Shown: positions 8,050 to 33,033 of the stretch, piece after piece | How the letters are laid out: each line of letters opens with the position of its first letter | How positions within the stretch are numbered: the first letter of the stretch is position 1 | DNA from: Bacteroidales bacterium | GTDB lineage: Bacteria; Bacteroidota; Bacteroidia; Bacteroidales; UBA932 | DNA: 64,000 nucleotides | Assembly: GCA_024691765.1 (NCBI GenBank) | Contig: JAILNI010000041.1 | Span: 1 to 64,000 of the forward strand | Direction of reading: 5' to 3' | Program-made: the position numbers and the translations under genes | The notes under the pieces: model-generated | What the model saw: only the letters and a program-made list of their open reading frames with translations | Databases searched by the model: none | Told to the model about the DNA's origin: nothing

Positions 8050-8076
8050 TATTAACCCTTAAAAGAGCAATTGATT

Positions 8077-11799: not shown

Positions 11800-11816
11800 C
11801 AAGACCCGACGTCAAT

Positions 11817-14463: not shown

Positions 14464-17400
14464 ATGAGAAAATTCATACTGGCTTTGCTGCTCTCCTGCA
14501 TCGCAACACTTGCAGGAGCGCAGCAAAAGCTGTCTTTAAGCGGCACGGTGGTCGACGAACAGGGCGAACCCGTAGTGGGTGCGGCGCTGGTCGTAAAGGG
14601 CGCCCCGACAGAAGGCGCGATTACCGGCCTGGACGGCGAATTTGCCATGCAGGTACGTCCTGACGCAGTGCTGGAGGTCTCGTGCTTCGGCTTTGCGAAC
14701 CAGGACGTTCCGGTGGCGGGGAGGACTGAAATCAAGGTGGTCCTCACCGTTGACAACCAGGTGCTCGACGAAGTCGTCGTCGTCGGTTACGGCATGGCCT
14801 CGAAGCGTCTCGTTTCGTCGTCGATAGCATCGCTGAAGATGGACGACATCGACCGCGGAGCCGAGACCGACCCCGTGAAGAGCCTCCAGGGCCGCGTTAC
14901 CGGTGTGAGCGTGACAAGCCCGTCGGGTATTCCGGGCGAGAGCCCCAACATAATAGTCCGCGGCGTCAGCTCCATCTCCGGCAGTTCGTCGCCCCTTTAC
15001 GTAGTCGACGGAATCCCGGCGGAGAGTTACCCGAACATCAATCCTGGTGACATCGAGCGTATGGAGGTGCTCAAGGACGCCTCCGCAACTGCCATTTACG
15101 GCAGCCGTGCAAATGCCGGCGTGGTGATAATCACCACCAAGAGCGGAAAGGCGGGCAAGTCGAAGATCGACGTGGACGCCCATTTCGGAGTGGCCCAGGT
15201 GGCACACGACATCGTGATGGCCAACACCGCTCAGTATATCGACGTGATGCAGGCTGCGGTCGACAACTGGAACGTCTATGTGGCGGAGAAGGGGAGCGGT
15301 TCCCTGAAGGAACTCTACATCCCCGACAATCCGGCCGACTTCGACTGGGTGGGCGCAATCTCACGCAGGTGGGCGAAGCGCAGCAGCGTTTCGGCAAGCC
15401 TTTCCGGCGGCAACGACGCCACGACCTTTTATCTTTCGACCGGCTACGACGGCCAGGAAGGCTACCTCAACAAGACGGCCTTCAACAAATACACGGTGCG
15501 TGCGCGCATAGGACACAAAATCGCGCCGTGGATAGCCCTTAACGTGAACATGGCGGGTGCTTATGCACGTTACGACAAGACGGAAGAAACCGACGGGAGC
15601 CTGAAGGTGCTTCGCGCCGCACGCGAAGAGCAGCCGTGGTACACCCCGTACTGCACCCGCAGCATAGACGATTTCGGACGCGAAATCCGTGCGAATGCTA
15701 ACAGCGGCGACTACCGTACCATGAGCGTGGACGGCCTCGCCCGCCACAACCCGGTGATGTGCATAGAGGAAGAGGACTACTGGAACAACAAATACCAGCT
15801 GTCCGGAACGGCATCACTGGACATTACCCCTGTCAAGGGGCTCAGGTATACTCCTTCCATAAGCGGGTATACCATCTTCGATAATTCGACCAAGAAACTT
15901 ACGGAGCTCAATACGGAGCGCGGTTACAAGGACGGCTGGCACGCCCTGAGCATACAGAAGAACAATTCACTGCGCTGGGTGTTCGACAACGTATTGAGCT
16001 GGAATCAGGAAAGGGGCCGCCTCACCTACGACATTATGGCGGGCCACTCCTACGAGCAATACGAGTACGACACCTTTGGTGCGGCGTCCGACAACTATGC
16101 CAATTCGGCATATCCGTCCTCGTCTTTCAATCTCATCACCTCCGGCACTGACATCTATGCCGGAAGCATAGGTTACAACGCCTACGCCCTCGAGTCGTAC
16201 TTCTCCCGCGGCGCTCTCAACTGGGACAACCGTTACATACTCAATGTCTCGTTCCGTACCGACGGAAGCTCCCGTTTCCCGAAGAACAACCGTTTCGGAT
16301 TCTTCCCGGCAGCATCGCTCGCATGGATAGTGACCAATGAGAAGTTCTTCCCGAAAAACCCTGTGCTGAACGAACTCAAATTCCGCCTTTCCGCGGGCCA
16401 GACCGGCTCAATGGCGGGCATAGGCAACTGGGCGGCAATGAACCTCGTGAGCGCCGGCTCTTCCTACAACGGCGTTTCCGGACTCGCCTTCAGCACTCCT
16501 GCACAGGACCTCAAGTGGGAGAAATCCACGAAGTACAACCTCGGACTCGACTCCGACTGGCTGGACGACAGGATGTCGGCGCAGCTGGATGTGTTCTACT
16601 CCCGGACCGACGACCTTCTTTACTCCAAGCCGGTCATCGCCACATCGGGCTATACTTCGCTTTCTTCCAACATTGGCGTGATGGAGAACGTCGGCGTGGA
16701 GTTTAACGTGAGCGGCACGGTGCTCAAGGCGGGGGATTTCAACTGGGACCTCTCAGGCAACTTCTCCTGGGCCAAGAACAGGCTCGTGAGCCTTCTTGAA
16801 GACCAGGACATCATATTCGTCAACTCCAGCAACCTGTACGGCGGCAACAAGCACGCCATCATTACCAATGAGCCGATATCCACATGGTACACTCTGGAAG
16901 CCCTGGGAATCTACCAGGACGACAGCGAGGTGCCGGCCAAACTCTACGCCAAAGGCGTGAGGGCCGGTGACGTCAAGTACCGCGATATCAACGGCGACGG
17001 CGACATCGACTACAATAACGACCGCACCATTACCGGCAAGGCCACTCCGGATTTCTTCGGAGGACTCACCTCCACCATGCGCTGGAAAGGCTTTGAACTC
17101 AACCTGTTCTGCCAGTATAGCATTGGCGGGAAGATATTTGCAGCGTGGAAGGGAGCCGGCCAGGAAGGCGCGGAGCATCTGGGCCTGTCCGCCGGCAGTG
17201 TTACCGCCGACAACGGAAAGAGCTACAGCCAGTTCTTCAACGTCAGCCGCGATGCGGCGCTGGGTTATTGGAAGGGCCCCGGAACATCGGATACTCTTCC
17301 GCGTCCAACAGTTTCCGGAATGCATACCGGTTGGGACGTTGATTACAACATCCTCACTTCGTCCCGTTTCCTCGAGGACGCATCCTACTTCAAGTTCAAG

Positions 17401-17628
17401 ACCGTCACCCTTGCCTGGAACCTTCCCAAACGCCTGATCGGCAGGGCTGGAATAGCGGGGGCGAAAGTGTTCCTGAGCATCGACAACGCACTCACTCTCA
17501 CCCGTTACGACGGCTACGACCCCGAGGTCTCCATGGCATCGGGCCCCGCTACCGCCAACTACGGAGTGGACTTCGGCTGGCAGCCTACCCTTCGCAGTTT
17601 CCTTGCAGGTGTCTCCATCAAACTCTAA
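14464..17628 (+). CDS. SusC/RagA-family TonB-linked outer membrane protein
   Basis: Signal peptide; LSGTVVDEQGEPVVGAALVVKG carboxypeptidase-regulatory-like domain; VLDEVVVVGYG; plug ...SPLYVVDGIPAE...; TonB-dependent barrel. Confidence 0.97.
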   Translation: MRKFILALLLSCIATLAGAQQKLSLSGTVVDEQGEPVVGAALVVKGAPTEGAITGLDGEFAMQVRPDAVLEVSCFGFANQDVPVAGRTEIKVVLTVDNQVLDEVVVVGYGMASKRLVSSSIASLKMDDIDRGAETDPVKSLQGRVTGVSVTSPSGIPGESPNIIVRGVSSISGSSSPLYVVDGIPAESYPNINPGDIERMEVLKDASATAIYGSRANAGVVIITTKSGKAGKSKIDVDAHFGVAQVAHDIVMANTAQYIDVMQAAVDNWNVYVAEKGSGSLKELYIPDNPADFDWVGAISRRWAKRSSVSASLSGGNDATTFYLSTGYDGQEGYLNKTAFNKYTVRARIGHKIAPWIALNVNMAGAYARYDKTEETDGSLKVLRAAREEQPWYTPYCTRSIDDFGREIRANANSGDYRTMSVDGLARHNPVMCIEEEDYWNNKYQLSGTASLDITPVKGLRYTPSISGYTIFDNSTKKLTELNTERGYKDGWHALSIQKNNSLRWVFDNVLSWNQERGRLTYDIMAGHSYEQYEYDTFGAASDNYANSAYPSSSFNLITSGTDIYAGSIGYNAYALESYFSRGALNWDNRYILNVSFRTDGSSRFPKNNRFGFFPAASLAWIVTNEKFFPKNPVLNELKFRLSAGQTGSMAGIGNWAAMNLVSAGSSYNGVSGLAFSTPAQDLKWEKSTKYNLGLDSDWLDDRMSAQLDVFYSRTDDLLYSKPVIATSGYTSLSSNIGVMENVGVEFNVSGTVLKAGDFNWDLSGNFSWAKNRLVSLLEDQDIIFVNSSNLYGGNKHAIITNEPISTWYTLEALGIYQDDSEVPAKLYAKGVRAGDVKYRDINGDGDIDYNNDRTITGKATPDFFGGLTSTMRWKGFELNLFCQYSIGGKIFAAWKGAGQEGAEHLGLSAGSVTADNGKSYSQFFNVSRDAALGYWKGPGTSDTLPRPTVSGMHTGWDVDYNILTSSRFLEDASYFKFKTVTLAWNLPKRLIGRAGIAGAKVFLSIDNALTLTRYDGYDPEVSMASGPATANYGVDFGWQPTLRSFLAGVSIKL

Positions 17629-17640
17629 ATGCCCGGAATC

Positions 17641-19086
17641 ATGAAAAAGTATCTTTACATCTTGTTCCTTATGGTTCTGGCACTTTCCTCTTGCGGAAAG
17701 ATGCTGGACGGCATTTCACCGAAGGGAGCCATCACCACAGACAAACTCAGCGATTCCGATATCGCCCTGCTGTCGAACGGAGTGATGCACCAGTTCGAAG
17801 CCATTGTGAGCAACCTCTGGTTCGAAGGGGATTATCTTGCCGAAAACTACGCGGCGGGCCCGGGCTTCAGTTTCAGCGACACCCATGCTGAAACGCAGTC
17901 CGCAGCGTCCTCCACCGCGCTTTCCCGCTGGCAGTACTGCTACGGCAAGCTCCAGTATGCCAACCTGCTGATAGATGCCGCAAAGAAGGGCGTTTCGGCC
18001 GATGCCAAGGAGGCTCTCGGCGTGGGCTACTTCTTCCGCGCGTACATATATTACAATCTGGTCACCCGCTACGGAGGAGTTCCGATTATCGATGCCCCCA
18101 CCAACCTGGACGCTTCGGTGACTCGCGCCTCCGAGGCAGCCACATGGAAATTCATAGAGGACGACCTTGACAGGGCTGACGCAATGTTCACCTCGGCAGG
18201 CACACAGTTCAGTTCGTTTGCGTACGTGTCGCCCGAAGCAGTGGCCATGCTCAGGGCCAGGGTTTTCCTGTGGGAAGGGAAGTACGCTCAGACCGTTACG
18301 GAAGCGGGCAAGGTTATCGGCAGTGCCGCTCTGAGTCTCAGCGACAACGCCGCTGACTGGGCGAAAATGTTCGTGAACGGCAGCGCTTCGAAGGAACTTG
18401 TATTCGCCCCCGTGAACGTGCGTTCAACCGATTACATACGTCTCTTCGAAAAAGTCAACGATACGGACGGCAGTTGGAACTATTCCCCTGTACCTGCACT
18501 TTTTGCGGGCCTCTTTGCCGACAAGGCAGTTGCGGCGGACGATTTTCGCAAGGCTCCTACCTTCGGCGAGGATGCCAACCGCGTAATCAAGTTCCCCAAC
18601 GGTCAGGGCGGGCAGTTCGTCGCGAACCCGGCACCGTCGGAATCGCCGCTGCCTGTTTTCCGCGTGGCGGACGCATATTTCATGAAAGCGGAGGCCCAGT
18701 GGCTCGGCGGCAGTGTGGATGACGCCCTGCTGACCATGAAAGCCCTCATGGAGAAGCGTTACGCTACCGTGGCCCTTCCCGCAACGATGTCCGACAGCGA
18801 CTTCGAAACCCTTCTTCTGGATGAACTGCAGAGGGAGTTCTATGCGGAAGGCCGCCGCTGGTTCGACATCAAGCGCCTGGCCATAAGGCATCACGGTTAT
18901 GTAAGTGCAACAGATTATTCAGGCGGGGATTTCACCACCTGGATAAAGACGGTTTACCCGGGGAATGACAGTTATGCCATTGACGGTTGGAACGACCGTC
19001 ATCAGCTCATGTACTGGCCCATCCCCCAGGCCGAGCGCGACAAGTCGTACGGCGCACTTGCCCAGAATCCCGGTTATGAACAATAA
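17641..19086 (+). CDS. SusD/RagB-family nutrient-binding lipoprotein
   Basis: Lipobox LALSSCGKM; EALGVGYFFRAYIYYNLVTRYGGVPII; LLDELQREFYAEGRRWFDIKRL; follows SusC. Confidence 0.97.
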   Translation: MKKYLYILFLMVLALSSCGKMLDGISPKGAITTDKLSDSDIALLSNGVMHQFEAIVSNLWFEGDYLAENYAAGPGFSFSDTHAETQSAASSTALSRWQYCYGKLQYANLLIDAAKKGVSADAKEALGVGYFFRAYIYYNLVTRYGGVPIIDAPTNLDASVTRASEAATWKFIEDDLDRADAMFTSAGTQFSSFAYVSPEAVAMLRARVFLWEGKYAQTVTEAGKVIGSAALSLSDNAADWAKMFVNGSASKELVFAPVNVRSTDYIRLFEKVNDTDGSWNYSPVPALFAGLFADKAVAADDFRKAPTFGEDANRVIKFPNGQGGQFVANPAPSESPLPVFRVADAYFMKAEAQWLGGSVDDALLTMKALMEKRYATVALPATMSDSDFETLLLDELQREFYAEGRRWFDIKRLAIRHHGYVSATDYSGGDFTTWIKTVYPGNDSYAIDGWNDRHQLMYWPIPQAERDKSYGALAQNPGYEQ

Positions 19087-19098
19087 ACAATAAACAAT

Positions 19099-20754
19099 AT
19101 GAAAAAGCTTTTAGTCATCATTGCAGCCCTTCTGCCTTTCCTGTGCGGCTGCAACAAGAATTCCGAAGGCGACGGCACGCCTCTCAACGTAAATGTGAGC
19201 GTTTCTCCTGAAATGATATATGCCGGTGATGCGGTGTCGTTCGAGGCGGTAGTCAGCGGAGGTAAGAAGCCCTACAGCTATGAGTGGACGATACGCGGCG
19301 AAGTCCAGGCCCATAAGGAGGCGTCTATGGTTTATACTTTCCAGACCAACGGAAGCGAAATAGTGCTTTTGAAGGTTTCCGATGCCGCCGGAGCAAGCGC
19401 GCAAAAGCGCAAGGTGGTAGTCATCAACGCAGCCAAGATACCTGAAACAGGTGAACTGACGCTCAACTGGGTAGGACGCATGGGAGGATACAACTCGCAG
19501 TCCTCGGCTGCGATAGCTCCCGACGGGTCCATTTACACCACCTGCCGCGACAATAACCTTTACAAATGGTCGTCATCCGGTGAATCCGTATGGGTGAAAC
19601 AGATATTCAAGCCTACCGCGAAATCGACCAGCGTGACATACGGAACGCCTTCTATCGACACCGACGGCACCGTATTTATCGGAGGCGGTGACGGCAAGAG
19701 CGATACGGCTGGCGACGGCACTCTCAAGGCCTTCAATCCGGACGGAAGCGTAAAATGGAGCTTCAGCGAATGGTGGGCTTCCAGCGGAACACCCATGCCT
19801 ACATGCCAGGGTGTCATTGCCGCCATCGACGGAGACAACATTTATTACGGGCACACCGGAACCAACGGAATCGTGGCCTCTATTAATAAGGCTACCGGAG
19901 CCCGCAACGGCTTTGCCGCCCCTGCCGGCGGCGCCCGAAGCGGTATCGCCATCTCGAAGGCCGGAACGATCCACTGGTACGGAGGACAGTTCGGCCTGTT
20001 CGGCATAGACAAGAGTTCGCTCGATGGCGGCGGAGCCGACAAACAGAACCATAAATGGCGCGTCTTCGGCGACAGCGGCAGTGCGGAATATGCCACCACC
20101 AACGCGCTCGGCCAGCTGGCCTGCCTTACGGTTGGCGGAACTCCCTGCGTCGCAGGCATAGCGACTGACGGTAAGGGAACAAAGGTATACGTAGCCAAGG
20201 CCTCCAGCGGTGAAATTGTGAGTACATGCTACATCGACGACAGCGATGCGCAGGACCAGGGAGGCGTAGTGGTGGACAAGAACGGCAACCTCGTAGCCGG
20301 CCTCAACTATACTCTCGGTCAGGATAACGGCGGCGTTATCTTCATTGATCCTTCCGACGGCAAGGTGGTATGTCGTTTCCGCACTCAGGAGAAGCTTTCA
20401 GGCTCTCCCGCAGTCGACAAAGCAGGCAACATACACTTCGGTACGGAATCGGGTTTCTACTATGTTGTCAAGCCGGACGGCGACAACTGCCAGCTGCTTG
20501 TCAAGCGCAACCTGGCGAAAATGGTGGTTGAGGACAGCCGTTATGCGGAATCCTTCTCCAAGTTGTACACTGCAAAGATCTGGTGCTCGGTAGTCATAGC
20601 AGACGACGGACGCATGTACATCTGCTTCACCGACGACGACTCCCGTGCTTTCGGCGGCGTTGCCTGCCTGAGCTATGCGGGATGCGAAGGCCCGGCGGAA
20701 TCCGAATGGCCCATGATGGGGCATGACTGCCGCCACACCGGAAAACAAATCTAA
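19099..20754 (+). CDS. Lipoprotein with PKD-like domain and PQQ-like beta-propeller
   Basis: Lipobox FLCGCNKN; PYSYEWTIRGE; repeated blades (GSIYTTCRDNNLYKWSSSGE..., GDGTLKAFNPDGSVKW); C-terminus EWPMMGHDCRHTGKQI. Confidence 0.8.
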   Translation: MKKLLVIIAALLPFLCGCNKNSEGDGTPLNVNVSVSPEMIYAGDAVSFEAVVSGGKKPYSYEWTIRGEVQAHKEASMVYTFQTNGSEIVLLKVSDAAGASAQKRKVVVINAAKIPETGELTLNWVGRMGGYNSQSSAAIAPDGSIYTTCRDNNLYKWSSSGESVWVKQIFKPTAKSTSVTYGTPSIDTDGTVFIGGGDGKSDTAGDGTLKAFNPDGSVKWSFSEWWASSGTPMPTCQGVIAAIDGDNIYYGHTGTNGIVASINKATGARNGFAAPAGGARSGIAISKAGTIHWYGGQFGLFGIDKSSLDGGGADKQNHKWRVFGDSGSAEYATTNALGQLACLTVGGTPCVAGIATDGKGTKVYVAKASSGEIVSTCYIDDSDAQDQGGVVVDKNGNLVAGLNYTLGQDNGGVIFIDPSDGKVVCRFRTQEKLSGSPAVDKAGNIHFGTESGFYYVVKPDGDNCQLLVKRNLAKMVVEDSRYAESFSKLYTAKIWCSVVIADDGRMYICFTDDDSRAFGGVACLSYAGCEGPAESEWPMMGHDCRHTGKQI

Positions 20755-20766
20755 ACTTATGTTGTC

Positions 20767-21819
20767 ATGAAAAAGCTTTTCGCTTTTTTAGTCGTCGCGC
20801 TTTGTCTGTTCGCTCCTTCATGCAACACTCAGGAGAACGAAGGCGGGAATAATGGTAAGGACAATCCTACCGTACCAGATGTGCCGGAAGACACGCCGTC
20901 GGCTGCGAACACGACCCTTCTCACACTTCTGAAGGAGAAAATCGCGGAGTATAACCAGGATGCCACGGTTCCGACCAGCCACGTCTTCATCTGCGCCCAC
21001 AGGGCGAACACTTACGAGGCTTACCTGAACTCCATTCCGGAGAACTCGATTCCCAATATCGAGATGGCGATTGCCAAGGGTGCTGACATGGTGGAGCTGG
21101 ACGTGCGTCCCAGCAAGGACGGCACCCTGTACCTCATGCACGACGAGACCGTGAATGCCACCACAAACGGTAAGGGAAGCATTGAAACCCTGACCGACGA
21201 ATACATCAACGGTCTTGAAATGAAGGCCCGGGGCGCGTCTACCTATTATAAGGTCGACGGGCAGCCGGTGCGTGTGCCAACCCTGGAGCAGGCTCTTGCG
21301 GCATGCAAGGGGAAGATTTATGTGAATCTCGACCTTTCGGGCAAGAACTGCTCCCCGTCAGGGGTTGTACGGGCAATCATGAACACAGGAACCGTAGACC
21401 AGGTGATGATTTACGGAGCGAACGGGGCCAGCGAGCAGAAGGAGTACATTACCAAGGGTTACGAGCGCTGCGGCAGCTGGCTTGCCATTCACCCGTACAT
21501 CAGCTCTCCTGACAACATAAAGAACTATGCAACAGGTTATTACGACTGTGCGAAGCTGTTCCAGTATAACTATGATGTCTATTATAACAATACAATAGAC
21601 AAGTTCGGAAGCAAATGCCATGAGGCCGGAGGACTGTCCTATTCGAACAGCCTTGATTACGACAAACAACTGCGGGACTGGTATAACAACTATTACAAAA
21701 AGGGCATCGAGGGCAGTTGTACGGTTCTCGACCGCTTCATAGCTTCCGGCTCCGACTTCGTACAGACCGACCACGTGGAAATAGCGAATTTGTATTTGAA
21801 ATCCAAAGGTTTAAGATAG
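20767..21819 (+). CDS. Glycerophosphodiester phosphodiesterase-family lipoprotein (GDPD)
   Basis: Lipobox FAPSCNTQ; HRANTYEAYLNSIPENSIPNIEMAIAKGADMVELDVRPSKDGTLYLMHD: HR / E-x-D / H catalytic pattern of GDPD. Confidence 0.88.
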   Translation: MKKLFAFLVVALCLFAPSCNTQENEGGNNGKDNPTVPDVPEDTPSAANTTLLTLLKEKIAEYNQDATVPTSHVFICAHRANTYEAYLNSIPENSIPNIEMAIAKGADMVELDVRPSKDGTLYLMHDETVNATTNGKGSIETLTDEYINGLEMKARGASTYYKVDGQPVRVPTLEQALAACKGKIYVNLDLSGKNCSPSGVVRAIMNTGTVDQVMIYGANGASEQKEYITKGYERCGSWLAIHPYISSPDNIKNYATGYYDCAKLFQYNYDVYYNNTIDKFGSKCHEAGGLSYSNSLDYDKQLRDWYNNYYKKGIEGSCTVLDRFIASGSDFVQTDHVEIANLYLKSKGLR

Positions 21820-21820
21820 C

Positions 21821-24007
21821 ATGAAAAGACTGGTAATACTGGCATTGGCGATGCTGGCCGTTGCGGTTTCCTGCAAAAAGCAGTCGGAGAAAGAAAAGGA
21901 TAATCAAAACGGACAGGCAGAATCAGGCGTAACCCTGCAGCTCTGGGCCCGCACTCCCGCGGATTTGGTTTGGCACAATGGGGACGCCATAGGCCTGTAT
22001 ACTTCCGACGATTTCAATTCCCGTTTCGAGCTGGATTATCTTGAGGCAGGCAAGGAGGATCGCGCCCGTTTCAATGGAAAGATTACCCGGGACGCTGCCG
22101 TTTTCGGCGCGTATTTCCCATTTGACACGGATGCGGGAGAGCGCCTTGACGCATTGCGCCTAAGCATACCTGAAGGTGTGAAATACGGAGACGAGCCCGC
22201 CCGTTTTGATTTGGCATCCTATCAGGACGGTGAAGCTATAGCTTTCACTTTTGTGCCGAAGCTGGCAACGGTAAAGCTTGTTTTCGACAAGGTTTCAGGC
22301 ACTCCGATTGACGGCATTGATCTTAAAGACATAACCATCACGGGTCAGCGGAACATGGTGGGCCTGTATTCGGCTAACCTGATTCAGCCTTCCCAGATGC
22401 TCTCGGCACTGAACGGAAGCAACGTGCTTTCTTTCGACATGAACGGCCAGACGATGACGGAAGGCCTTGAAGTCAAAGCGTCGATAGCTGCGATGTGGAA
22501 GGGAGGAGACAAGATAAGCGTTTCGCTCAACGAAGGAGAGTACACAACTGAACTGACTCTGGCAAATTCCATCGGAGAGGGCGAAGAGCTGGAACTCACC
22601 GTGAGCGCTACCGTTTTCAATCCGGTGATCACACTCGACTGGGTGAGTCCGGCGCTTGGATTGAAGTCCGCTGAAGCTTCGGAAATGCGTAGCAATTACC
22701 CGGCTGTGGATGATGCCGGCAATGTATACGTCCAGATCTCCAAGGGCGATGCCAAGCTCTATAAACTGAAGCCGGCCGACGGTTCCGTCGCGTGGTCTGT
22801 CGATATGGGTTACACGCCCGAGAACAACGCTTCGCCTTCCTGCGAAGCCGACGGCTCCGTGGTTTACGCTCTCGGTGGCTCTTCCGGCAGCGGCCGCGTC
22901 ATGGCCGTCAACGGATCGGACGGATTGGTCAAATGGACCTTCGGCCCGGATAAGTTTTTCGGTAACGGAAGCACACCTGCTCCCAACTTCAACCAGGTGA
23001 CTCCGGCAATTGGCGAAACCTGCATTTATGTCGGCAATGCCGGAACTGCCGGAACCGTGCTTGCCATCGATAAAACCACTGGAGAAAGGGTCGCTTATGT
23101 CTCCGACACGACAGATGGTATCGGAGGGCCTGCTGGCGGTGCTCAGTCAGGTGTGGGCATTACAGCCGGCGGGGAAGTGGCTTGGGTTGCCAATTACGGC
23201 ATCTTTACGGCCGACAAGGCCCTTCTGGATGCTCCTGTGTCGATTCACGACACATACGGAGCATTCGTGCCCTGGGCCCAGCATTTCTATCATGGCTGGC
23301 AGTACAAATCCTCCAGAAGCGGCATTGCCTGTTCAAAGATAGACGGGGTGGACGCTGTCTGGGCGACGGTTATGGAACAGACTACCAGTGGACAATGGAA
23401 CCTGCACGTTATCTGTTCCAAGGTCGAATCCGGAAAGCAGGGAGATTACACCAAGGGTAAGTTCACCCTGGACAAGAAGATAGAGAATGTTACCAACCAG
23501 GATCAGGGAGGCATAGTGATAGGCCCGCAGGGTGAAGCGGTCGTGGCGCTCAAGGGAACTCCGGGATCCATCAAGGGAATAATGCCCAACGGAGATGTAG
23601 CGTATTCGTATACGCTTCCCGGGGGCAAGGATGTGACCGGTGCCTGCGCCGTGGACAACAACGGATTCATACATATCATAGGTGACGAGAGTGGCGGCGC
23701 GGATTATTATGCCATAGTGCGTCCCGACTATGTGAACGGTACGTGCGAGCCTGTAGCTGTGGCAGACCTCAATGTCCTGGTAAAGGGCGTCGACATGGGA
23801 ACCTGCGACAGGGTTCGCGCTTGGACGTCGGTAGTGCTCGGAAAGGATGGCAAGATGTATATCGGGGTCACTGCAAAGGATGAATCGGGCAATACCAAGC
23901 AGGCCCGTGTGATGCGTCTCTCGTTCAAGAGCACCAAGGGGCCGAGTTCCGTTTCTCCATGGCCTCAGAGAGGCGCTGACGCATGTCATTCCGGTAATCA
24001 GAAATAA
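21821..24007 (+). CDS. Lipoprotein with fimbrillin-like N-terminus and PQQ-like beta-propeller
   Basis: Lipobox AVAVSCKKQ; N-terminal domain ...WHNGDAIGLYTSDDF..; propeller blades; C-terminus SPWPQRGADACHSGNQK parallel to the 19099-20754 product. Confidence 0.75.
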   Translation: MKRLVILALAMLAVAVSCKKQSEKEKDNQNGQAESGVTLQLWARTPADLVWHNGDAIGLYTSDDFNSRFELDYLEAGKEDRARFNGKITRDAAVFGAYFPFDTDAGERLDALRLSIPEGVKYGDEPARFDLASYQDGEAIAFTFVPKLATVKLVFDKVSGTPIDGIDLKDITITGQRNMVGLYSANLIQPSQMLSALNGSNVLSFDMNGQTMTEGLEVKASIAAMWKGGDKISVSLNEGEYTTELTLANSIGEGEELELTVSATVFNPVITLDWVSPALGLKSAEASEMRSNYPAVDDAGNVYVQISKGDAKLYKLKPADGSVAWSVDMGYTPENNASPSCEADGSVVYALGGSSGSGRVMAVNGSDGLVKWTFGPDKFFGNGSTPAPNFNQVTPAIGETCIYVGNAGTAGTVLAIDKTTGERVAYVSDTTDGIGGPAGGAQSGVGITAGGEVAWVANYGIFTADKALLDAPVSIHDTYGAFVPWAQHFYHGWQYKSSRSGIACSKIDGVDAVWATVMEQTTSGQWNLHVICSKVESGKQGDYTKGKFTLDKKIENVTNQDQGGIVIGPQGEAVVALKGTPGSIKGIMPNGDVAYSYTLPGGKDVTGACAVDNNGFIHIIGDESGGADYYAIVRPDYVNGTCEPVAVADLNVLVKGVDMGTCDRVRAWTSVVLGKDGKMYIGVTAKDESGNTKQARVMRLSFKSTKGPSSVSPWPQRGADACHSGNQK

Positions 24008-25215
24008 TGAAAAGAATCATATACTGCATGCTCGCAGGACTGGCCGCAATGGTATCCTGCAACAAGAACGAAGGCCCCGAACTGGACCTCAAGCCCTCGG
24101 TAATCTGCCACCAGGCGATTTCGGGGACTGCAATGAACGGAGAAAAGATAGTCGTGAGTGCGTCCAATATTTCCTCATCCACGGAGGTGACGGTTAAATT
24201 CGGCAAGGAGCAGACCCTTACCCGCAAGGGAGCGGGAACCATCTCCTATGCTTTCGAAAAGCCCGGATCCAAGACCATTACCGTTACCATGAGCCCGGAG
24301 GAGGTGGAGAAGCAGACCTTCAAGGTGTACATAGAGAAACTGGACGCCCTTCAGGTGCTTGCGCAGAAACTCAAGGCCAATCCCAATCTCTGCCTGACGA
24401 TGGCCCACCGTGGTAATTCCTCCGACTGGAGCATACCCGAAAACTCGCTGGGAGCCATCGAGAAATGCGTGGCGGACAAAGTGGACATCATGGAGACGGA
24501 CCTCTATACCACCAAGGACGGTGTGCTGGTTGTGTCTCACGACGCGTCCCTGAACCGCGAGACCGACGGAAGCGGAAACATCAGCTCAAAGACCCTTTCC
24601 CAGATAAAAAGCCTGCACCTCAAGGACCGCAACGGGAATGTCACGGACTACCAGATGCTCACCTTCGACGAGTTGCTTGATGCCTGCAAGGGACGCATCT
24701 ACGTCAACGTGGACATAGGAGACCGTGATGCCGATATCCCGACGGTTGTGACCATGATAGAGAAAAAGGGTATGACAGAGCAGGTACTTGTTTACTGCAA
24801 CGACAAGACCAAGATCCAGGCTGCTTTCAAGACCAACCCGAACTGCAACGTTTATTCCCCTACGGGAGGCAGTTCGACCAGTCTTGTCGAGGCCGGCCTG
24901 CCGGGAAACATCTATTTTACGCAGTGCACGTGGAACCCGACTACCGCGGAGGCTTCGAGGACAGGAAAGGTGGACTCCGGCAAACAGCCTACTTCCGCAA
25001 GCGCAGTCGCCACTGCCGTTGCAAACGGTACCATCATTACGGTGAACGCCATCTATACCCTCAACACTGCACAGTTCTGGCCTAAAGATTTCAAGCGGGA
25101 GCAGGTGGTTGACATCTTCAAGACCTTCCCCGCCACGCAGTGCCTGCACGTGGACACCCCTGCGGAAGCCCGCAACGCCCTGTTGGCTGAAGGGTATGCA
25201 TTGTTGAATAACTAA
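24007..25215 (+). CDS. Second GDPD-family lipoprotein with Ig/PKD-like N-terminal domain
   Basis: Lipobox AMVSCNKN; MAHRGNSSDWSIPENSLGAIEKCVADKVDIMETDLYTTKDGVLVVSHD. Confidence 0.87.
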   Translation: MKRIIYCMLAGLAAMVSCNKNEGPELDLKPSVICHQAISGTAMNGEKIVVSASNISSSTEVTVKFGKEQTLTRKGAGTISYAFEKPGSKTITVTMSPEEVEKQTFKVYIEKLDALQVLAQKLKANPNLCLTMAHRGNSSDWSIPENSLGAIEKCVADKVDIMETDLYTTKDGVLVVSHDASLNRETDGSGNISSKTLSQIKSLHLKDRNGNVTDYQMLTFDELLDACKGRIYVNVDIGDRDADIPTVVTMIEKKGMTEQVLVYCNDKTKIQAAFKTNPNCNVYSPTGGSSTSLVEAGLPGNIYFTQCTWNPTTAEASRTGKVDSGKQPTSASAVATAVANGTIITVNAIYTLNTAQFWPKDFKREQVVDIFKTFPATQCLHVDTPAEARNALLAEGYALLNN

Positions 25216-25232
25216 CTAAATATCTTATAACT

Positions 25233-28193
25233 ATGTCATTGAAGACTTGCCTTGCGGCTCTTGCCCTGTGGCTTATGATTCCGGCCGCCGCCCTCGCCCA
25301 GAGCGTGTTCTCCGGAACCGTCACCGACAGGGAAGGGGAGCCTGTGATAGGTGCGTTCGTTTATGAGAAGGGTACCCAGAACGGGGCGATGACCGATCTC
25401 GACGGAGCCTTCTCACTGACTGTCGCAAAAGGGAAGACAGTGGTCGTCTCCTATATCGGTTTCGAAGACAGGGAACTGGTGTTCGAAGGACAGCAGGGCC
25501 TCGTAATCGTGTTGGAGGCTGCCACCACTGCACTCGACGAGGTCGTTGTGGTCGGTTACGGATCCATGAAGAAGAAGGAAATGACTTCGGCCATATCCCA
25601 TGTCTCTTCAAAGGACTTCAACCAGGTGACTTCGCTCGATTCCAGGATGCTGCTTCAGGGAAAGGTGTCCGGCGTGAATGTGGACAACACCCAGCTCGCC
25701 GACCCGAACAACCAGGCCAGCATACAGATTCGAGGCGTTTCGTCGCGTCAGGCTGGAACAGGCCCCCTGTATGTGATTGACGGCATTCCGGGTGGCGACA
25801 TGACCAACATAAACCCTGCGGACATCGAGTCCATCGATATCCTCAAGGACGGTGCTGCATCGGCCATCTACGGAACCCGCGGAGGTAACGGCGTTGTCCT
25901 GGTGAACCTGAAGAAAGGTGCGCGTGACGGCTCAGTGCATACCAAGTACAGCGGCTCCTATACCGTGAATGTTCCTAAACGCGAGCTTCAGATGCTCACG
26001 CCTGACCAGTACAGGGCATACCGCTGCGCGAGCAACCCGCTTGGCGACTTCGGCGCAAACACCGACTGGTTCGACGCATCCACCCGCATTGGCACGTCCC
26101 AGATGCATACCCTCACCGTTTCCGGCGGCTCGGCGAAATCCAACTACCGGGTTACCGCCGATTACCGCTATTCGACCGGTATCGACCTTCGCTCGGACCG
26201 CAAGGAATACGGGGCGAGGGCGACGGCGAACCATACGACCTCCAGCGGTCTTTTCACCTTCAGCGGAAGCATTACTCCGAGGGTAATCGCAAAGAACAAT
26301 TCCGTGGGATTCGGAGCCGTGCTGCAGAACAACCCCACGTACCCTGTGTACGATGAGAATTCTCCCAACGGCTACTACCAGTTCGCCGCGGGCGTTACCG
26401 GGTCGAACCTTGTGGAAACAGCCACCCAGGTGATTGATTTCGACCAGGTCCGCCTCCTGGAAATGAGCGGCAGCGCCAGACTCAACCTCCTGCCTCTGCT
26501 GGCACCTGCGCACAAGGGGTATGAACTTACCAGCCTCGTGACGGTTTCCGACCATGTTACCGACAAGTTCAACAACTATTACGAACCGTCCACGTATTCC
26601 GGACAACAGAACACCGGCCATACCGGTTATGCCGAAAAAGCTACTTCCGCCTCGCAGCTCATGAACCTGGAGTGGGTTACCAACTTCTCCATGGAACTTT
26701 CCGGACACCGCGTCCGTGCAATGGCGGGCTATTCCTATGCGTACAATGTAAGCTCGAGCTTCAGCGCAAACAACTCCGACTTCACCACCGACGCCACGAC
26801 CTACAACAATCTGGGTGAAGGCGCAGAGGCGGCCCTCGACGGCAAAAAGCTCATGTCCTCCTCGAAATCGGACAACAAGCTCATCTCCTTTTTCGCACGA
26901 GTGAACTACGACTGGAAGGAACGCTACCTGCTGTCGGTATCGCTGCGGCATGAGGGATCTTCCCGTTTCGGAGCCAACCACAAATGGGGTAACTTCCCGG
27001 CCGTTTCGGTGGGATGGCGCATAAGCGACGAGCCTTTCATGGGCTTCGCCTCCGGCATCGTTGACGACCTCAAGCTGCGTTACGACTTCGGCGTCACCGG
27101 CAACCAGGATATAGGCAACTACCTTTCGCTTTCCACTTACCGTGCCTACGGTTATTACCAGTACAACGGCCAGAGGTTTAACGTGTGGGGCCCGTCGGGC
27201 AACGTTAACCCGGACCTCCGCTGGGAGAAGGGTTACAACCAGAATCTCGGTCTGGACTTCAGCCTTCTCAAGTACCGTATTACTGGTAGCATCAACTACT
27301 TCAACCGTCATCAGGTGGACCTGCTGGGCAGCTACGACGTCGCCGTACCGCCCAACATATCGTCTACGATTACGGCCAACGTGGGTTCCATGCGCAACCA
27401 GGGCATAGAAGTGGACCTGACAGTCATTCCGCTGCGGCGCGAGGGCTTCGAATGGTCCTTCACCGTGGTGGGAGCTACTTCCAACAACAAGTTCGAGAGC
27501 TTCTCCAATGACATTTTCAAGGGACAGAGCTATGTCTCCACTTGCACGATGGCCAATCCCAACAATCCCGGTCCGCTGCAGAGGCTCGAGGAAGGACAGC
27601 GCGTGGGTAATTACTACACTTACCGTTATGCCGGCGTGGATACCAGGGGAGACTGGCTAATCTACGCTGCTGACGGCAGGATAATCCCCATCACCGAGGG
27701 TACCGACGCCGACAGGACAGTCACCGGCAACGGCCTGCCCTGGTTCACTGGCTCCCTTACAAACAATATCAAATACGGGAACTTCGATTTTGGGATATCG
27801 CTTCGCTCAGCGCTTGGTTTCGAGATCTTCAACGTTCACGATTTCTATTACGGTCTGCAGAGCATGACGACTAACCTGCTTACGAGCGCCTATGCAAAAA
27901 ACGCTGCCGTAAGCAAGGGCCGTAACGTGCTGACCGACTATTTCCTCGAGCCTGGAGACTATCTCAAGCTCGACCAGATAAGCGCAGGATACACGCACAA
28001 ATTCAAGAGCAAGTATCTGGAGAGCGTACGTGCGTTCTTCACGGCTTCCAACATCTATACCCTTACCCGATTCACCGGAGTGGATCCTTCCAACTATCCG
28101 GTTAACGGTATGACTCCGGGCACCTTCGGCGGCAGCATAAAGTACTATCCGTCTGCCTTCCAGTTTGTTTTGGGACTTCAAATCGGCTTCTGA
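25233..28193 (+). CDS. SusC/RagA-family TonB-linked outer membrane protein
   Basis: FSGTVTDREGEPVIGAFVYEKGT; ALDEVVVVGYGSMKKKEMTSAISHV; GPLYVIDGIPGGDMTNINPADIESIDILKDGAASAIYGTRGGNGVVLV. Confidence 0.97.
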   Translation: MSLKTCLAALALWLMIPAAALAQSVFSGTVTDREGEPVIGAFVYEKGTQNGAMTDLDGAFSLTVAKGKTVVVSYIGFEDRELVFEGQQGLVIVLEAATTALDEVVVVGYGSMKKKEMTSAISHVSSKDFNQVTSLDSRMLLQGKVSGVNVDNTQLADPNNQASIQIRGVSSRQAGTGPLYVIDGIPGGDMTNINPADIESIDILKDGAASAIYGTRGGNGVVLVNLKKGARDGSVHTKYSGSYTVNVPKRELQMLTPDQYRAYRCASNPLGDFGANTDWFDASTRIGTSQMHTLTVSGGSAKSNYRVTADYRYSTGIDLRSDRKEYGARATANHTTSSGLFTFSGSITPRVIAKNNSVGFGAVLQNNPTYPVYDENSPNGYYQFAAGVTGSNLVETATQVIDFDQVRLLEMSGSARLNLLPLLAPAHKGYELTSLVTVSDHVTDKFNNYYEPSTYSGQQNTGHTGYAEKATSASQLMNLEWVTNFSMELSGHRVRAMAGYSYAYNVSSSFSANNSDFTTDATTYNNLGEGAEAALDGKKLMSSSKSDNKLISFFARVNYDWKERYLLSVSLRHEGSSRFGANHKWGNFPAVSVGWRISDEPFMGFASGIVDDLKLRYDFGVTGNQDIGNYLSLSTYRAYGYYQYNGQRFNVWGPSGNVNPDLRWEKGYNQNLGLDFSLLKYRITGSINYFNRHQVDLLGSYDVAVPPNISSTITANVGSMRNQGIEVDLTVIPLRREGFEWSFTVVGATSNNKFESFSNDIFKGQSYVSTCTMANPNNPGPLQRLEEGQRVGNYYTYRYAGVDTRGDWLIYAADGRIIPITEGTDADRTVTGNGLPWFTGSLTNNIKYGNFDFGISLRSALGFEIFNVHDFYYGLQSMTTNLLTSAYAKNAAVSKGRNVLTDYFLEPGDYLKLDQISAGYTHKFKSKYLESVRAFFTASNIYTLTRFTGVDPSNYPVNGMTPGTFGGSIKYYPSAFQFVLGLQIGF

Positions 28194-28194
28194 G

Positions 28195-29976
28195 ATGAAA
28201 AAGATATTGACATTCGCAATTATCGCCCTGGCGGCGGTATCCTGCACCAACCTGGACGAAAACGTTTACTCATCTCTGATGAGCGCCAACTATTACCGCA
28301 AGAAGTCGGACGTCGTAAAGGCTGTATTCAGACCCTTTGAGCATTACTTCGAATCGGTACAGCGTTACATTCCCATGCAGGAGCTTTGCTCCGACGTATT
28401 CTTCACTCCGCAGATGGACGACTACGGCTGGTGGGACGGCGGTAAATGGGACCAGTGGCATAAGCACGACTGGCAGGACATTTCCGGCGACCTGGTGGAG
28501 AGCCAAGTCGGTGATTTCTGGACAAATACCTATCAGGGAATAGCCCAGTGCAACCTGGTGCTTGACGATATAAAGAGGCTGGACCATTCGAAATTTCCGG
28601 ACATAACGGAAGCGGAGTGGGGCTCTTTCGAGGCTCAACTGCGATGCATGAGGGCTTACGCCTATCTGAAGCTTTTCAATTTCTACCGCAACTGCCAGCT
28701 TATTACCTCTTCTTCCACCACTGAAAACGAGAAAGTGGAGCGTAAAAAGCAAGTGAAACCCCAGGTGTTGTACGACTTCATCGAGGATGAACTGCTGGAC
28801 TGCATCAACCTCCTGCCTTCGAAAATTGGCACCGGAGGCCCTGATACCCACCAGGGAGAACTTACCAAGGGTGCCGCCGCGACGCTTCTTGTGCGCCTCT
28901 ACCTGAATACGGAAGTCTGGATGGGCTATAAGGCCTACGACAAATGCAAGGCGATGTGCGACAGAATCCTGGGCGGCGAATTCGGTACGTACGCCCTGGC
29001 GGAAAACTGGTACGCCCCGTTCGACTGGGACAACGATAAGTGCCCAGAAGTGATTTTCGGTTTCCCGGCATCCTTCGGCACCACTTCGTGGCACATGCAG
29101 AACGACCGTCGTACCGTCTATGGCCGTGGGCTGCCCTACAACAGCCAGAAGTATCTTGAAATTGACCAGGACGGTTCACGCAACCCCCGCTGGCATCTGT
29201 CGCCTTCGTTCGACAATCGCAGCCCGCGGCGTCCGTTCACTGGAGCTCCATATAACTATACCCTGGGCTGTCCTACGCAGAAATTCGAGAAATACCCCGG
29301 AGACCTGCGCTACAAACAGTACAAGAATACCTCGGTCAATACACGCGAGGGAATGTTCTTCCTTGAAGGCTATATTGTAGACAAGGATGGCAACAGGGCC
29401 ACGGCCCATGCAGGATACGACCTGTATCTGCTTGACCAGTGCGGAGGCTTTATGTCAGGAGCTCCTACCGGAACCATAACCGATGCCAAACGCTCGGAAT
29501 CCACAATTTTCAACGGTGACATGAATTCCGGTCTGTATTGCGTTAAGTATCCTTTCTACTCATATGCGGGAGGTTATTACATGGAGCCGGACTATACGGA
29601 CATGAGGCTTGCGGAAATAATCTATTCAAAAGCCGAATGCCTCTATCGTGAAGGCGACAAGACAGGAGCCGGCAAACTGCTGAATTCGGTTCGCAAGCGC
29701 AATTATGAAAATTTCAAATCCTCCATCGCCTACCAGGGCTCCGACGGAGGCAGCGTAGTGCTTACCGACCAGGAGTTCATCGATGAATGGATGAGGGAAT
29801 TCATATTCGAGGGACGCCGCCGCGACGACCTTATCCGCTGGGGGCGTTTCGAGGAAGCCTGGTGGGAAAAGACAGCGGATTCAGATACCCACAAGCGCAT
29901 CTATCCTCTTGCCAAGTCCACATTGGAACTCAACAGATATCTTAAACAGAATCCCGGTTATCCCGGCATTAATTAA
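28195..29976 (+). CDS. SusD/RagB-family nutrient-binding lipoprotein
   Basis: Lipobox AAVSCTNLDE; AQLRCMRAYAYLKLFNFY; EFIDEWMREFIFEGRRRDDLIRWGRF; follows SusC. Confidence 0.95.
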   Translation: MKKILTFAIIALAAVSCTNLDENVYSSLMSANYYRKKSDVVKAVFRPFEHYFESVQRYIPMQELCSDVFFTPQMDDYGWWDGGKWDQWHKHDWQDISGDLVESQVGDFWTNTYQGIAQCNLVLDDIKRLDHSKFPDITEAEWGSFEAQLRCMRAYAYLKLFNFYRNCQLITSSSTTENEKVERKKQVKPQVLYDFIEDELLDCINLLPSKIGTGGPDTHQGELTKGAAATLLVRLYLNTEVWMGYKAYDKCKAMCDRILGGEFGTYALAENWYAPFDWDNDKCPEVIFGFPASFGTTSWHMQNDRRTVYGRGLPYNSQKYLEIDQDGSRNPRWHLSPSFDNRSPRRPFTGAPYNYTLGCPTQKFEKYPGDLRYKQYKNTSVNTREGMFFLEGYIVDKDGNRATAHAGYDLYLLDQCGGFMSGAPTGTITDAKRSESTIFNGDMNSGLYCVKYPFYSYAGGYYMEPDYTDMRLAEIIYSKAECLYREGDKTGAGKLLNSVRKRNYENFKSSIAYQGSDGGSVVLTDQEFIDEWMREFIFEGRRRDDLIRWGRFEEAWWEKTADSDTHKRIYPLAKSTLELNRYLKQNPGYPGIN

Positions 29977-29982
29977 GTAACC

Positions 29983-31419
29983 ATGAAGAAGTACAGCATT
30001 ATATTATTATCCGTCCTTCTGGCGGCTTGCCAACCACACTTCGACATGGTGCCGCCTGACGGCAGCGGCCCGGTCGCCCAGGAATTTACCGAAAACTGGT
30101 ACGTGACGCAGAACGGCTCCGGCTCCAAAGACGGCAGCGACTGGTCCAATGCCCTGCCGTTCAAGACCCTTATACAAAGGATTTCGTCATCTGCGGCGTC
30201 GTTCTCGGATGCCGGTATCCACATTCAGGAAGGCACATACCTTCTGAATGCCAAAGATTCCTGCATAACGCTTAACTCGGACATCCTCTGCATAAGGGGA
30301 GGCTACAGCAGCGACCTTAAGTACGATGACCTTTCCAAATGCGACCCCGACATGTATCCTACCATATTTACGGGAGATGTCAACGGTGACGGAGTGGCAA
30401 ACGACGGTGATGCGGCATTTGCCTATGTAAGCGAGGCTTCGGTACGCTTCGAAAACATTACCTTCAGGAACTTTTATCTGAGTCCGGCTTTGAATTCAAA
30501 ACTAGGAAGCAAAGGCGGAGCTGTATTCGGAATCAACGGACAGTATCTTACCACTTCCGTAGAATGCCGGAACTGCATATTTGAGGGTAACGCGAACGGC
30601 ATTTCATCCAGTGCGAATCAGGAAGGCGGCCCTTGCGCTTATGTGTGGGAAGGCTATTTCAAGGCACGGGGCTGTGCGTTTATAGACAATGCAGCCAACA
30701 GCCGCGGAGGCGCCATACGCACCAATGGGAAATCTGCGGTAATCTTCCTCGACGCTTGTTTCTTCAAAGGCAACAGGATTGAGGCACAGTGGGGCTCGGC
30801 TATCCAGAATTCAGCCGGAGTGATTTGCGCAAACAACTGTACTATGATACAGAATACGGGAGCCGGCTCCACCCTCAACGGCGGCGGCGCCTTCTTCCTT
30901 GCAAACTGCACAATACTCGACGATGCAGAGCCTTCCGGCAGCAACAACGCGGCATTCCGCTGCGAGTCCAAGGCTAACTGCGGAACCATGCTCATCAACA
31001 ATGTGCTCGGCAGTACGAATGCCGCAGGCTACGGACTCATACTCAACGCCGGCGGCACGCTCCTATCAAAGGGATACAACCTGATAAAGAGCGCTTATCT
31101 TGCTGACGGATGCTCTGATCCTACGCTGACATCGGACCTCAAGAAGGATGTCGTGCTCGCGGGTAGTCTGGACGAAGAAGCTTTCTGCTGGGAATGGGAT
31201 TTTGACCAAATCAAAGACGATTTCCTCGAATTCGCAGTTACCGACGACGTATACGATGCTGCAGTGCTTTTCGAACCTTCGGGTTATTGTTCGATTGCGG
31301 TTTTGGGAAGGGCCTTCGCCACATGGGCCACTCCAAATGCTTTCGCAGTCGACTGCCGCGGCGAGATTCGCGGCGACGACGGCTTCCAGCCCGGCGCATA
31401 TGATCCAAACCTTGATTAG
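29983..31419 (+). CDS. Beta-helix lipoprotein
   Basis: Lipobox LLAACQPH; WYVTQNGSGSKDGSDWSNALPFKTL start shared with paralogs; CAFIDNAANSRGGAIRTNGKSAVIFLDACFFKGNR; C-terminus DCRGEIRGDDGFQPGAYDP. Confidence 0.8.
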   Translation: MKKYSIILLSVLLAACQPHFDMVPPDGSGPVAQEFTENWYVTQNGSGSKDGSDWSNALPFKTLIQRISSSAASFSDAGIHIQEGTYLLNAKDSCITLNSDILCIRGGYSSDLKYDDLSKCDPDMYPTIFTGDVNGDGVANDGDAAFAYVSEASVRFENITFRNFYLSPALNSKLGSKGGAVFGINGQYLTTSVECRNCIFEGNANGISSSANQEGGPCAYVWEGYFKARGCAFIDNAANSRGGAIRTNGKSAVIFLDACFFKGNRIEAQWGSAIQNSAGVICANNCTMIQNTGAGSTLNGGGAFFLANCTILDDAEPSGSNNAAFRCESKANCGTMLINNVLGSTNAAGYGLILNAGGTLLSKGYNLIKSAYLADGCSDPTLTSDLKKDVVLAGSLDEEAFCWEWDFDQIKDDFLEFAVTDDVYDAAVLFEPSGYCSIAVLGRAFATWATPNAFAVDCRGEIRGDDGFQPGAYDPNLD

Positions 31420-31425
31420 ACTGAC

Positions 31426-33033
31426 ATGAAAAAGATATTATTCATACTGTTTGTCCTGATTGCGGCGTTCGCTTGTTCACCGGCCGAGATACGGCAGGCA
31501 AAAGTCCTGACGCCGTCGGAAATAGCGGAACATAATAAGAATTATCCGAATCCGGAAGATCCGAACAACCCTGATAACCCCGACAATCCTGATAACCCGG
31601 ACAATCCAGACAATCCAGACAATCCAGACAATCCCGATAACCCGAACCCTCCCGTGGTTATTACCAAGTACTACGTGAGCGTATCGGGCAGCGGCAGCAA
31701 GACTGGTGAGGATGCCTCAAACGCCCTTGATTTCGATGGTTTCAAGACCTTTGTCGTGACTGCAGCCGCAGCCGGCAAGACTTTCAGTTTCGCCGACGGC
31801 ACATATGTGTTTGCCACGCACCTTTCGCTTGGCAATGCGGTATCCCTTATCTTCGAGGGAGGAGAGGGAGCGGTCCTCAGCGGTGACGGCAAAACCCGCA
31901 TCCTCAATCTGGGCGGCGGAGTCAACCTTGCAATAAAGGGCATGACTCTGTCCGGAGGCTACTGCACCACTCACGGCGCCGCTATTTATGCCGACAACTG
32001 CACGCTCACGGCAGACGGAACGGCGTTTAAGAACAACAAGACAAACGGAGGCTCTGGGAAAAACGACAACAACGGAGGAGCGATATATCTGGGGAGCAAT
32101 ATGCAGTCGGCTGTTTTCAAGAACTGCCTGTTCTCCGGGAACCGTATAGAGACTACATCTACCGACCAGTACGGAGCTTCGGTACGTATCGAATCGGCCA
32201 GCAGCCCGTACGAGGTCCTTTTTGACAATTGCACCTTCAAACAGAATTATGCAAAACAGGCTCCTGGTATCAGTGTGAATGCCAAGGTGGTCCTCAAGGT
32301 GAACAACTGTCTTTTCGAGGATAATTCCGCCAATTCCCGCGGAATGATCCAGGGCAACGGCGGAGTAGTATTCATCAACGGCAGCACTTTCCACGACAAC
32401 CATACCACCGACAACAACGGCTGGGGAGTGGACATTCACGGAAAGGTTTATCTGTGCATCCATAACTCCACCATTTACGGAAATACCAACGCCAGCACTA
32501 CCGCAGGCAACAACAACGCTGCAATCAACGGATACCATTCCATGCTTATGACCAACTGCACGGTTATCGAATCCTGCCAGCTCGGGCTGCTGAGAATCGA
32601 CGACAATGCCGGTAAACAGGTGCTCTGCAACAATATCCTCGTGAATACTTCGGGAAAGACCGTTCTTATAGGCAATACCACGGCGGTTTCCCTTTCCCGG
32701 GGCCACAACGCCATGAGCGCAGTGTCGGGTTTCGACTCCTTCTCGGCAGACGCCACAGATCTCACTTCTTGCACCGAATCCAGTTTTGGGGAGCATTCCT
32801 ACAGCAACGGAGTTTACACCTGGAACGGAACTCTCGCCGGCTTTACGGCGGCAGGCAAGTCCGATGTGGAAGGGGCCATGGAGGAATTCAACGTGGATGT
32901 GAGCGGCCTTATGCAAAATATCGGCGGAGCCTTTATGGATTGGCTGGCATCCCTGACGCCCAACGCCCTGAACGTCGACGGACGGGGAACTGCCCGCAGC
33001 GCTTCCTGGTGGCCCGGCGCATACCAGAACTAA
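31426..33033 (+). CDS. Beta-helix lipoprotein with (Asp-Asn-Pro)n linker
   Basis: Lipobox AFACSPAE; NPDNPDNP... linker; YYVSVSGSGSKTGEDASNALDF; C-terminus DGRGTARSASWWPGAYQN. Confidence 0.82.
   Translation: MKKILFILFVLIAAFACSPAEIRQAKVLTPSEIAEHNKNYPNPEDPNNPDNPDNPDNPDNPDNPDNPDNPDNPNPPVVITKYYVSVSGSGSKTGEDASNALDFDGFKTFVVTAAAAGKTFSFADGTYVFATHLSLGNAVSLIFEGGEGAVLSGDGKTRILNLGGGVNLAIKGMTLSGGYCTTHGAAIYADNCTLTADGTAFKNNKTNGGSGKNDNNGGAIYLGSNMQSAVFKNCLFSGNRIETTSTDQYGASVRIESASSPYEVLFDNCTFKQNYAKQAPGISVNAKVVLKVNNCLFEDNSANSRGMIQGNGGVVFINGSTFHDNHTTDNNGWGVDIHGKVYLCIHNSTIYGNTNASTTAGNNNAAINGYHSMLMTNCTVIESCQLGLLRIDDNAGKQVLCNNILVNTSGKTVLIGNTTAVSLSRGHNAMSAVSGFDSFSADATDLTSCTESSFGEHSYSNGVYTWNGTLAGFTAAGKSDVEGAMEEFNVDVSGLMQNIGGAFMDWLASLTPNALNVDGRGTARSASWWPGAYQN
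31564..31648 (+). repeat. short in-frame tandem repeat, 9-nt units encoding Asp-Asn-Pro
   Basis: ...gacaatccagacaatccagacaatccagacaatcc... direct copies inside the ORF. Confidence 0.85.

Follow-up and report, generated by a model that had tools for sequence, protein, structure and literature searches.

Gene content of the locus

The subject of this work is a 64,000-nucleotide stretch of DNA, referred to here as the window (assembly GCA_024691765.1, contig JAILNI010000041.1, positions 1 to 64,000, forward strand), from a Bacteroidales bacterium of the UBA932 lineage, and in particular four consecutive lipoprotein genes in which two beta-propeller proteins alternate with two members of the glycerophosphodiester phosphodiesterase (GDPD) family. 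These are PROP1 (19099-20754, 551 aa), GDPD1 (20767-21819, 350 aa), PROP2 (21821-24007, 728 aa), and GDPD2 (24007-25215, 402 aa). All four are on the + strand and tightly spaced, and each product carries a lipobox. The starts (19099, 20767, 21821, and 24007) and the propeller/GDPD order given by an initial annotation, which was made from the sequence letters, match these exactly, and Pfam agrees with the assignments.

The four genes lie between two pairs of adjacent SusC and SusD genes. Upstream are SusC1 (14464..17628, + strand; TIGR04056, E 5.9e-247), a SusC/RagA TonB-dependent outer-membrane transporter, and SusD1 (17629..19086, + strand; PF07980, E 1.8e-19), a substrate-binding lid lipoprotein. 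Downstream are SusC2 (25233..28193, + strand; TIGR04056, E 5.6e-183), a second SusC/RagA transporter just 26% identical to SusC1, and SusD2 (28195..29976, + strand; PF07980, E 1.3e-19), for which the open reading frame (ORF) tool gave a TTG start at 28165 and the likely start is ATG 28195. All belong to a nearly gapless run of fourteen + strand genes (about 8071-37568), which opens with two beta-helix lipoproteins and continues after SusD2 with two beta-helix-related lipoproteins, a GLUG-repeat/SGNH protein, and a GH39-like enzyme. Overlaps of 28-29 bp disappear when likelier ATG starts are used for the ORFs at 11772 and 28165. From this spacing we infer that the run is one transcript. It seems probable to us that the four genes form the middle of a 14-gene operon joining two SusCD-type uptake units for a substrate containing glycerophosphodiesters.

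Two conserved units meet in the window

A propeller profile brought in 16 loci (L111, L112, L113, and L121 are on the same contigs as G077, G010, G034, and G051). One of these, L124, has a propeller with no GDPD nearby and was excluded; the 16-locus counts given here thus comprise 15 propeller loci and the window. The relatives sharing the locus are mostly metagenome-assembled genomes of ruminant-gut Bacteroidales. SusC1, SusD1, PROP1, and GDPD1 were contiguous and in the same order in all 16 loci, with SusD1 immediately 3' of SusC1 each time and SusC1 orthologues showing 54-81% identity. Wherever PROP2 was present, it immediately followed GDPD1 (9/9 loci: L109, L112, L114-L119, and the window), and wherever GDPD2 was present, it immediately preceded SusC2 (6/6 loci: the window, L110, L111, L112, L113, and L114). 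Three loci (L110, L111, and L113) had GDPD2 without PROP2. Just three had both, and these two genes are adjacent in the window only, other genes lying between them in the remaining two. Because of the neighbors that each keeps across loci, PROP2 belongs to a unit A, SusC1-SusD1-PROP1-GDPD1-(PROP2), and GDPD2 to a unit B, GDPD2-SusC2-SusD2. The propeller-GDPD-propeller-GDPD series of the window is the junction of these two units.

Gene fusions tie the two protein types together as well. In L114 (11677-14790), GDPD1 and PROP2 are parts of one 1037-aa protein, and in L120 (12670-15087), a PROP1-like propeller and a GDPD1-like enzyme are parts of one 805-aa protein. Fusions of this kind, by the Rosetta-stone argument, indicate joint action of propeller and GDPD. 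Taken together with the invariant gene order and with recurrence in other Bacteroidales families, described below, they establish that the propeller-GDPD link is real; the co-occurrence elsewhere on which the initial annotation had staked its pairing is thus borne out.

After the L120 fusion (15101-18372) come a gene for a DUF4886 protein and one for an alpha-L-fucosidase that bears F5/8C domains, which hints that the substrate in that locus is fucosylated.

Catalytic residues of the GDPDs

GDPD1 and GDPD2 matched PF03009 with 78.1 and 77.6 bits, respectively (E 1.5e-21 and 2.1e-21), against a curated cut-off of 23.6, and are 38% identical to each other over 141 aa. The HR, ExD, and general acid His, which the initial annotation had seen in both copies, were invariant across 66 aligned GDPDs, the two window copies included. 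Within the GDPD1 and GDPD2 clades, H78, R79, E110, D112, H125, and D189 (GDPD1 numbering) were invariant, the last being the Asp that serves as third metal ligand. GDPD2 has in addition a short N-terminal domain that is weakly PKD/Ig-like. At GDPD1 Q266, Gln was present in 21 of 22 members of the two clades and mostly replaced by Glu in other GDPDs; it is possibly a specificity mark common to both clades.

Domain architecture of the propellers

Both propellers matched PQQ_2 (PF13360) above its curated cut-off (E 2.3e-11 for PROP1 and 1e-8 for PROP2), and they share 29% identity over 490 aa. The AlphaFold2 model of PROP1 (pLDDT 88.8, pTM 0.86) comprised a PKD domain and a propeller of about 8 blades, whose best Foldseek matches in the PDB were the designed 8-bladed Cake8 and then BamB. 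The model of PROP2 (pLDDT 82.3) likewise matched BamB. As the initial annotation had it, the N-terminal domains differ. That of PROP1 matched PKD (PF00801) at E 5.9e-5, slightly below that model's own cut-off, while the PROP2 N terminus resembled, by AlphaFold2 and Foldseek, the Bacteroides fimbrillin-like structures 4k4k and 3sy6. Mfa_like_1 scored 0.028 in PROP2 of the window and 7e-13 in its L115 orthologue.

The two propellers had also been said to end in a similar motif. The motif, WPxxGxDxxHTGxQ, is indeed common to both, but it is conserved across the entire propeller family and is not special to this pair, which rules it out as a docking motif. It is probably better taken as an element of the fold.

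PROP1 is likely a substrate-capture protein. An enzyme paired with a docking unit at the cell surface, as proposed initially, would be the most economical reading of the propeller-GDPD pair, the propeller being the putative binding part.

Recurrence and association with GlpT-like transporters

We surveyed 20 neighborhoods of other GDPDs in relatives. A GlpT-like transporter was beside or near the GDPD in five (L142, L146, L151, L153, and L155), a PQQ propeller with SusCD in two (L146 and L155), and SusCD with a TIG-NHL propeller in one (L151). In G068 (L146) and G114 (L155), the order was SusC-SusD-PROP-X-GDPD-GlpT; in G149 (L151), SusC-SusD-metallo-beta-lactamase-fold protein-NHL propeller-GlpT-GDPD; and in G332 (L160), which represents a further family, SusC-SusD-GDPD-PROP-GDPD-GlpT, tightly packed. 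L122 reads SusC-SusD-PROP-GDPD-GDPD-GlpT, and its GlpT matched E. coli GlpT (1pw4) at 4e-46. By family, the GlpT-like proteins fall within the organophosphate antiporters (TIGR00881 and TIGR00712), and their substrate is likely glycerol-3-phosphate. A GlpT-like protein with 51% identity to the one in L122 is encoded in the genome of the window too, on a different contig.

The product of gene X, between propeller and GDPD (L146:7179-8201 and L155:9804-10871), is a lipoprotein about 340-355 aa long that matched nothing in Pfam; it is possibly another phosphodiester-handling enzyme. In L151 (8457-11083), the metallo-beta-lactamase-fold protein and TIG-NHL propeller put a different propeller class in the equivalent place.

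Order-wide profile searches, which score 3 candidates per genome and from which weak relatives may escape, found the propeller type in 1 of 393 sampled genomes each time (the window's own genome and G114). The G332 propeller came to light solely through its GDPD. These counts indicate that few genomes beyond close relatives carry the locus.

Other genes of the operon and of the genome

The run begins with beta-helix lipoprotein 1 (8071-11799, + strand; Chlam_PMP/Beta_helix, lipobox) and its 31% identical relative, beta-helix lipoprotein 2 (11772-14444, + strand; lipobox). Two lipoproteins akin to these by sequence, also with lipoboxes, follow SusD2 (29983-31419 and 31426-33033, + strand), such that four related Chlamydia PMP-like beta-helix lipoproteins flank the SusCD units (8071-14444 and 29983-33033). 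They vary in number and length among relatives and reach 1818 aa in G010.

The next gene encodes a GLUG-repeat lipoprotein with a C-terminal SGNH/GDSL hydrolase (33043-36138, + strand; PF16255, E 5.5e-17; Glug, 6.4e-4). The GLUG-repeat portion carries the SGNH hydrolase in the window and a GDPD in G077 (C41:1826-5218) and G051 (C19:19092-22556), and is by all appearances a surface scaffold with interchangeable catalytic heads. The last gene of the co-directional run encodes a GH39-like glycoside hydrolase (36135-37568, + strand; PF01229, E 7e-10). It is the only such gene of the operon, and none was seen in the orthologous loci examined, whose core enzyme is a GDPD.

The source genome is a 1.78-Mb assembly with 92.6% completeness and 6.7% contamination. 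Elsewhere in it, a cluster at L135 (G000:C44, 23-8160) encodes a metallophosphatase, a GH127-like protein, a GDSL-melibiase fusion, an endo/exonuclease/phosphatase, and a GlpT-like transporter, and may be a second organophosphate locus. A third GDPD (L136:7783-8763, G000:C3) has a C-terminal DUF4996; its orthologue adjoins the propeller locus in G051 (L121:2240-3262).

A possible route for glycerophosphodiester uptake

The best reading of the locus is that it is the phosphodiester counterpart of a polysaccharide utilization locus (PUL). The propeller lipoproteins, held out from the membrane by their PKD or fimbrillin-like domains, would capture substrate in the manner of surface glycan-binding proteins (SGBPs), and the lipid-anchored GDPDs, perhaps in complex with them, would cleave glycerophosphodiester bonds next to the transporter. 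SusCD would take up the resulting fragments. Glycerol-3-phosphate, freed outside the cell or in the periplasm, would then reach the cytoplasm via the GlpT-like transporter, which would be supplied from within the operon in some relatives and from elsewhere in the genome of the window. Teichoic acid, a glycerophospho-glycan, and lipid head groups are candidate substrates. Comparison of the SusD proteins with solved structures returned generic SusD matches only, with no hint of substrate. Since B. subtilis GlpQ requires an unsubstituted glycerol C2 (PMC7086022), it may be conjectured that the SGNH and GH39-like enzymes strip substituents off a teichoic-acid-like polymer.

Several observations weigh against this route. 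The GlpT-like proteins score under the curated cut-offs of the glpT models, and the window operon itself has neither a GlpT nor a FecR regulator. Lipoboxes cannot separate the surface from the periplasmic face. In addition, the GDPD near GlpT is often not a lipoprotein (L155, L151, and L153), and part of the cleavage may thus be periplasmic. The SGNH and GH39 enzymes suggest a substrate that goes beyond a simple glycerophosphodiester.

A bolder version, which as a whole we hold to be somewhat unlikely, is that rumen Bacteroidales possess a SusCD "phosphodiester utilisome" that binds, cuts, and imports the glycerol-phosphate polymers of neighboring bacteria, namely wall teichoic acids, lipoteichoic acids, or capsules bearing glycerophosphate. 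The GDPDs would be assisted by SGNH and GH39-like enzymes that take off side chains, and the propeller would be a new type of anionic-polymer binding protein.

Alternatively, the locus might be a PusCD-type phosphate-scavenging system whose phosphodiesterases free phosphate-bearing products to meet a need for phosphorus, whatever the carrier. Low phosphate induces the PUS loci of Flavobacterium, which do join SusCD with phosphodiesterases, and a low-phosphate-induced lipoprotein with propeller-type InterPro domains, Fjoh_3414, is listed among the proteins reported there (PMC8115612). However, the Flavobacterium PUSI enzymes are PF00149 and PF16670 proteins rather than GDPDs, the window operon has no phosphatase, and the co-located GlpT-like transporters indicate glycerol-3-phosphate as the prize. 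FecR genes, moreover, immediately precede SusC1 in 7 of the 16 loci and are themselves preceded by an ECF sigma-like ORF in at least L115 and L117-L119, an arrangement typical of substrate sensing that favors substrate-induced control over a plain phosphate-starvation response. On balance we consider phosphate scavenging unlikely.

Rather less probable still is that the propellers have a structural or adhesive function and no direct role with the GDPD substrate, these lipoproteins lying near the enzymes only because they share an operon. PROP2-type propellers do occur in a SusCD locus with no nearby GDPD (L124), and the fimbrillin-like domain and the beta-helix neighbors are adhesive-looking. 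Against this stand the fusions in L114 and L120 and the recurrence of the propeller-GDPD pairing in other families, even with a propeller of the NHL class (L151).

Origin of the two propeller-GDPD pairs

The initial annotation had explained the alternating order by module duplication followed by swapping of N-terminal domains, with sisterhood of the two GDPDs as the check. In a 64-row GDPD tree, the GDPD1s formed one clade and the GDPD2s another, both with 100/99 support, and the closest outside relative of GDPD2 was the GDPD of G043 (grouped 100/99), from a SusCD locus (L014) with no propeller gene detected. The approximately unbiased (AU) test rejected an exclusive GDPD1+GDPD2 clade (delta lnL 28, p-AU 0.031) and did not reject one in which L014 was allowed inside (p 0.50); the two copies are therefore not exclusive sisters. 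A second tree with more taxa placed GDPD1 and GDPD2 apart from ordinary Bacteroidales GDPDs (99/97), with a poorly resolved branching order. These results leave room for deep paralogy, in that GDPD1 and GDPD2 may go back to one remote ancestor; they lend no support to recent duplication. The propellers, too, form two old lineages: the PROP1 and PROP2 clades each span many genomes, and their split predates the divergence of these genomes.

A recent duplication in this genome is thus very improbable and, although the alternating genes are homologous pairs and GDPD1 and GDPD2 fall together in the second tree, it is largely refuted by the tree tests and by the gene order, in which the neighbor of PROP2 in relatives is GDPD1 and the PROP2-GDPD2 adjacency is peculiar to the window.

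The second GDPDs of L115, L117, and L122 were of the ordinary kind in the 64-row tree, which indicates that genes of differing origin have come to occupy the second position. L120 did undergo a true propeller-GDPD duplication, its second copy being the fused PROP-GDPD.

Comparison with known systems

SusCD loci have so far been understood almost solely in terms of glycan uptake. The conserved SusC-SusD-propeller-GDPD cassette, which turns up in several Bacteroidales families next to a GlpT-like transporter, points to a parallel class of loci by which gut and rumen bacteria would take up glycerophosphodiesters. It offers a concrete candidate for the means by which such bacteria could feed on teichoic acids or lipid head groups, and it raises the prospect that propellers constitute a class of proteins binding substrates at the surface. 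We found no description of this cassette in the literature searched, and a search for GDPDs with SusC/SusD found no described system save the Flavobacterium PUS loci. A GlcNAc phosphodiesterase (PMC10704324) was set aside as a precedent, since it belongs to a different enzyme superfamily.

A utilisome consists of SusC, SusD, an SGBP, and a surface hydrolase (PMC7618045). The locus resembles PULs and utilisomes in encoding SusC, SusD, a lipoprotein with Ig-like and binding-type domains, and a lipoprotein hydrolase in one operon; SusC1-SusD1-PROP1-GDPD1 supplies the four components in 16/16 loci, with PROP1 as the putative binding protein. ECF/FecR-type control in some orthologues is a further likeness. 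The differences are that the core hydrolase is a GDPD, predicted to act on phosphodiesters, rather than a glycosidase, and that the putative binding protein is a PQQ/BamB-type propeller.

A beta-propeller surface lipoprotein as the ligand-capturing partner of a TonB-dependent transporter, predicted here, has a parallel in BtuG, which caps BtuB in vitamin B12 uptake (PMC10404256). BtuG, however, has seven blades and serves as the lid itself, whereas the locus described here includes a SusD lid, and its larger, BamB-like propeller, with 8-bladed Cake8 and BamB as its best folds, sits on a PKD or fimbrillin-like stalk. The enzymes, for their part, have catalytic HR, ExD, and H residues identical to those of GlpQ/GDPD proteins such as B. 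subtilis GlpQ (PMC7086022) and 3i10, the nearest solved structure by sequence. They differ in being lipoproteins within a SusCD operon and in their third metal ligand, which is Asp in place of the Glu of most GDPDs described so far.

Functionally nearest are the PusCD loci of Flavobacterium (PUSI-IV; PMC8115612), in which, as in the window, SusCD pairs stand beside phosphodiesterases instead of carbohydrate-active enzymes. They use other phosphodiesterase families (PF00149 and PF16670 in PUSI, against PF03009 here), and the GDPD-propeller pair is not described there, whereas the loci described here combine that pair with GlpT-like partners in relatives.

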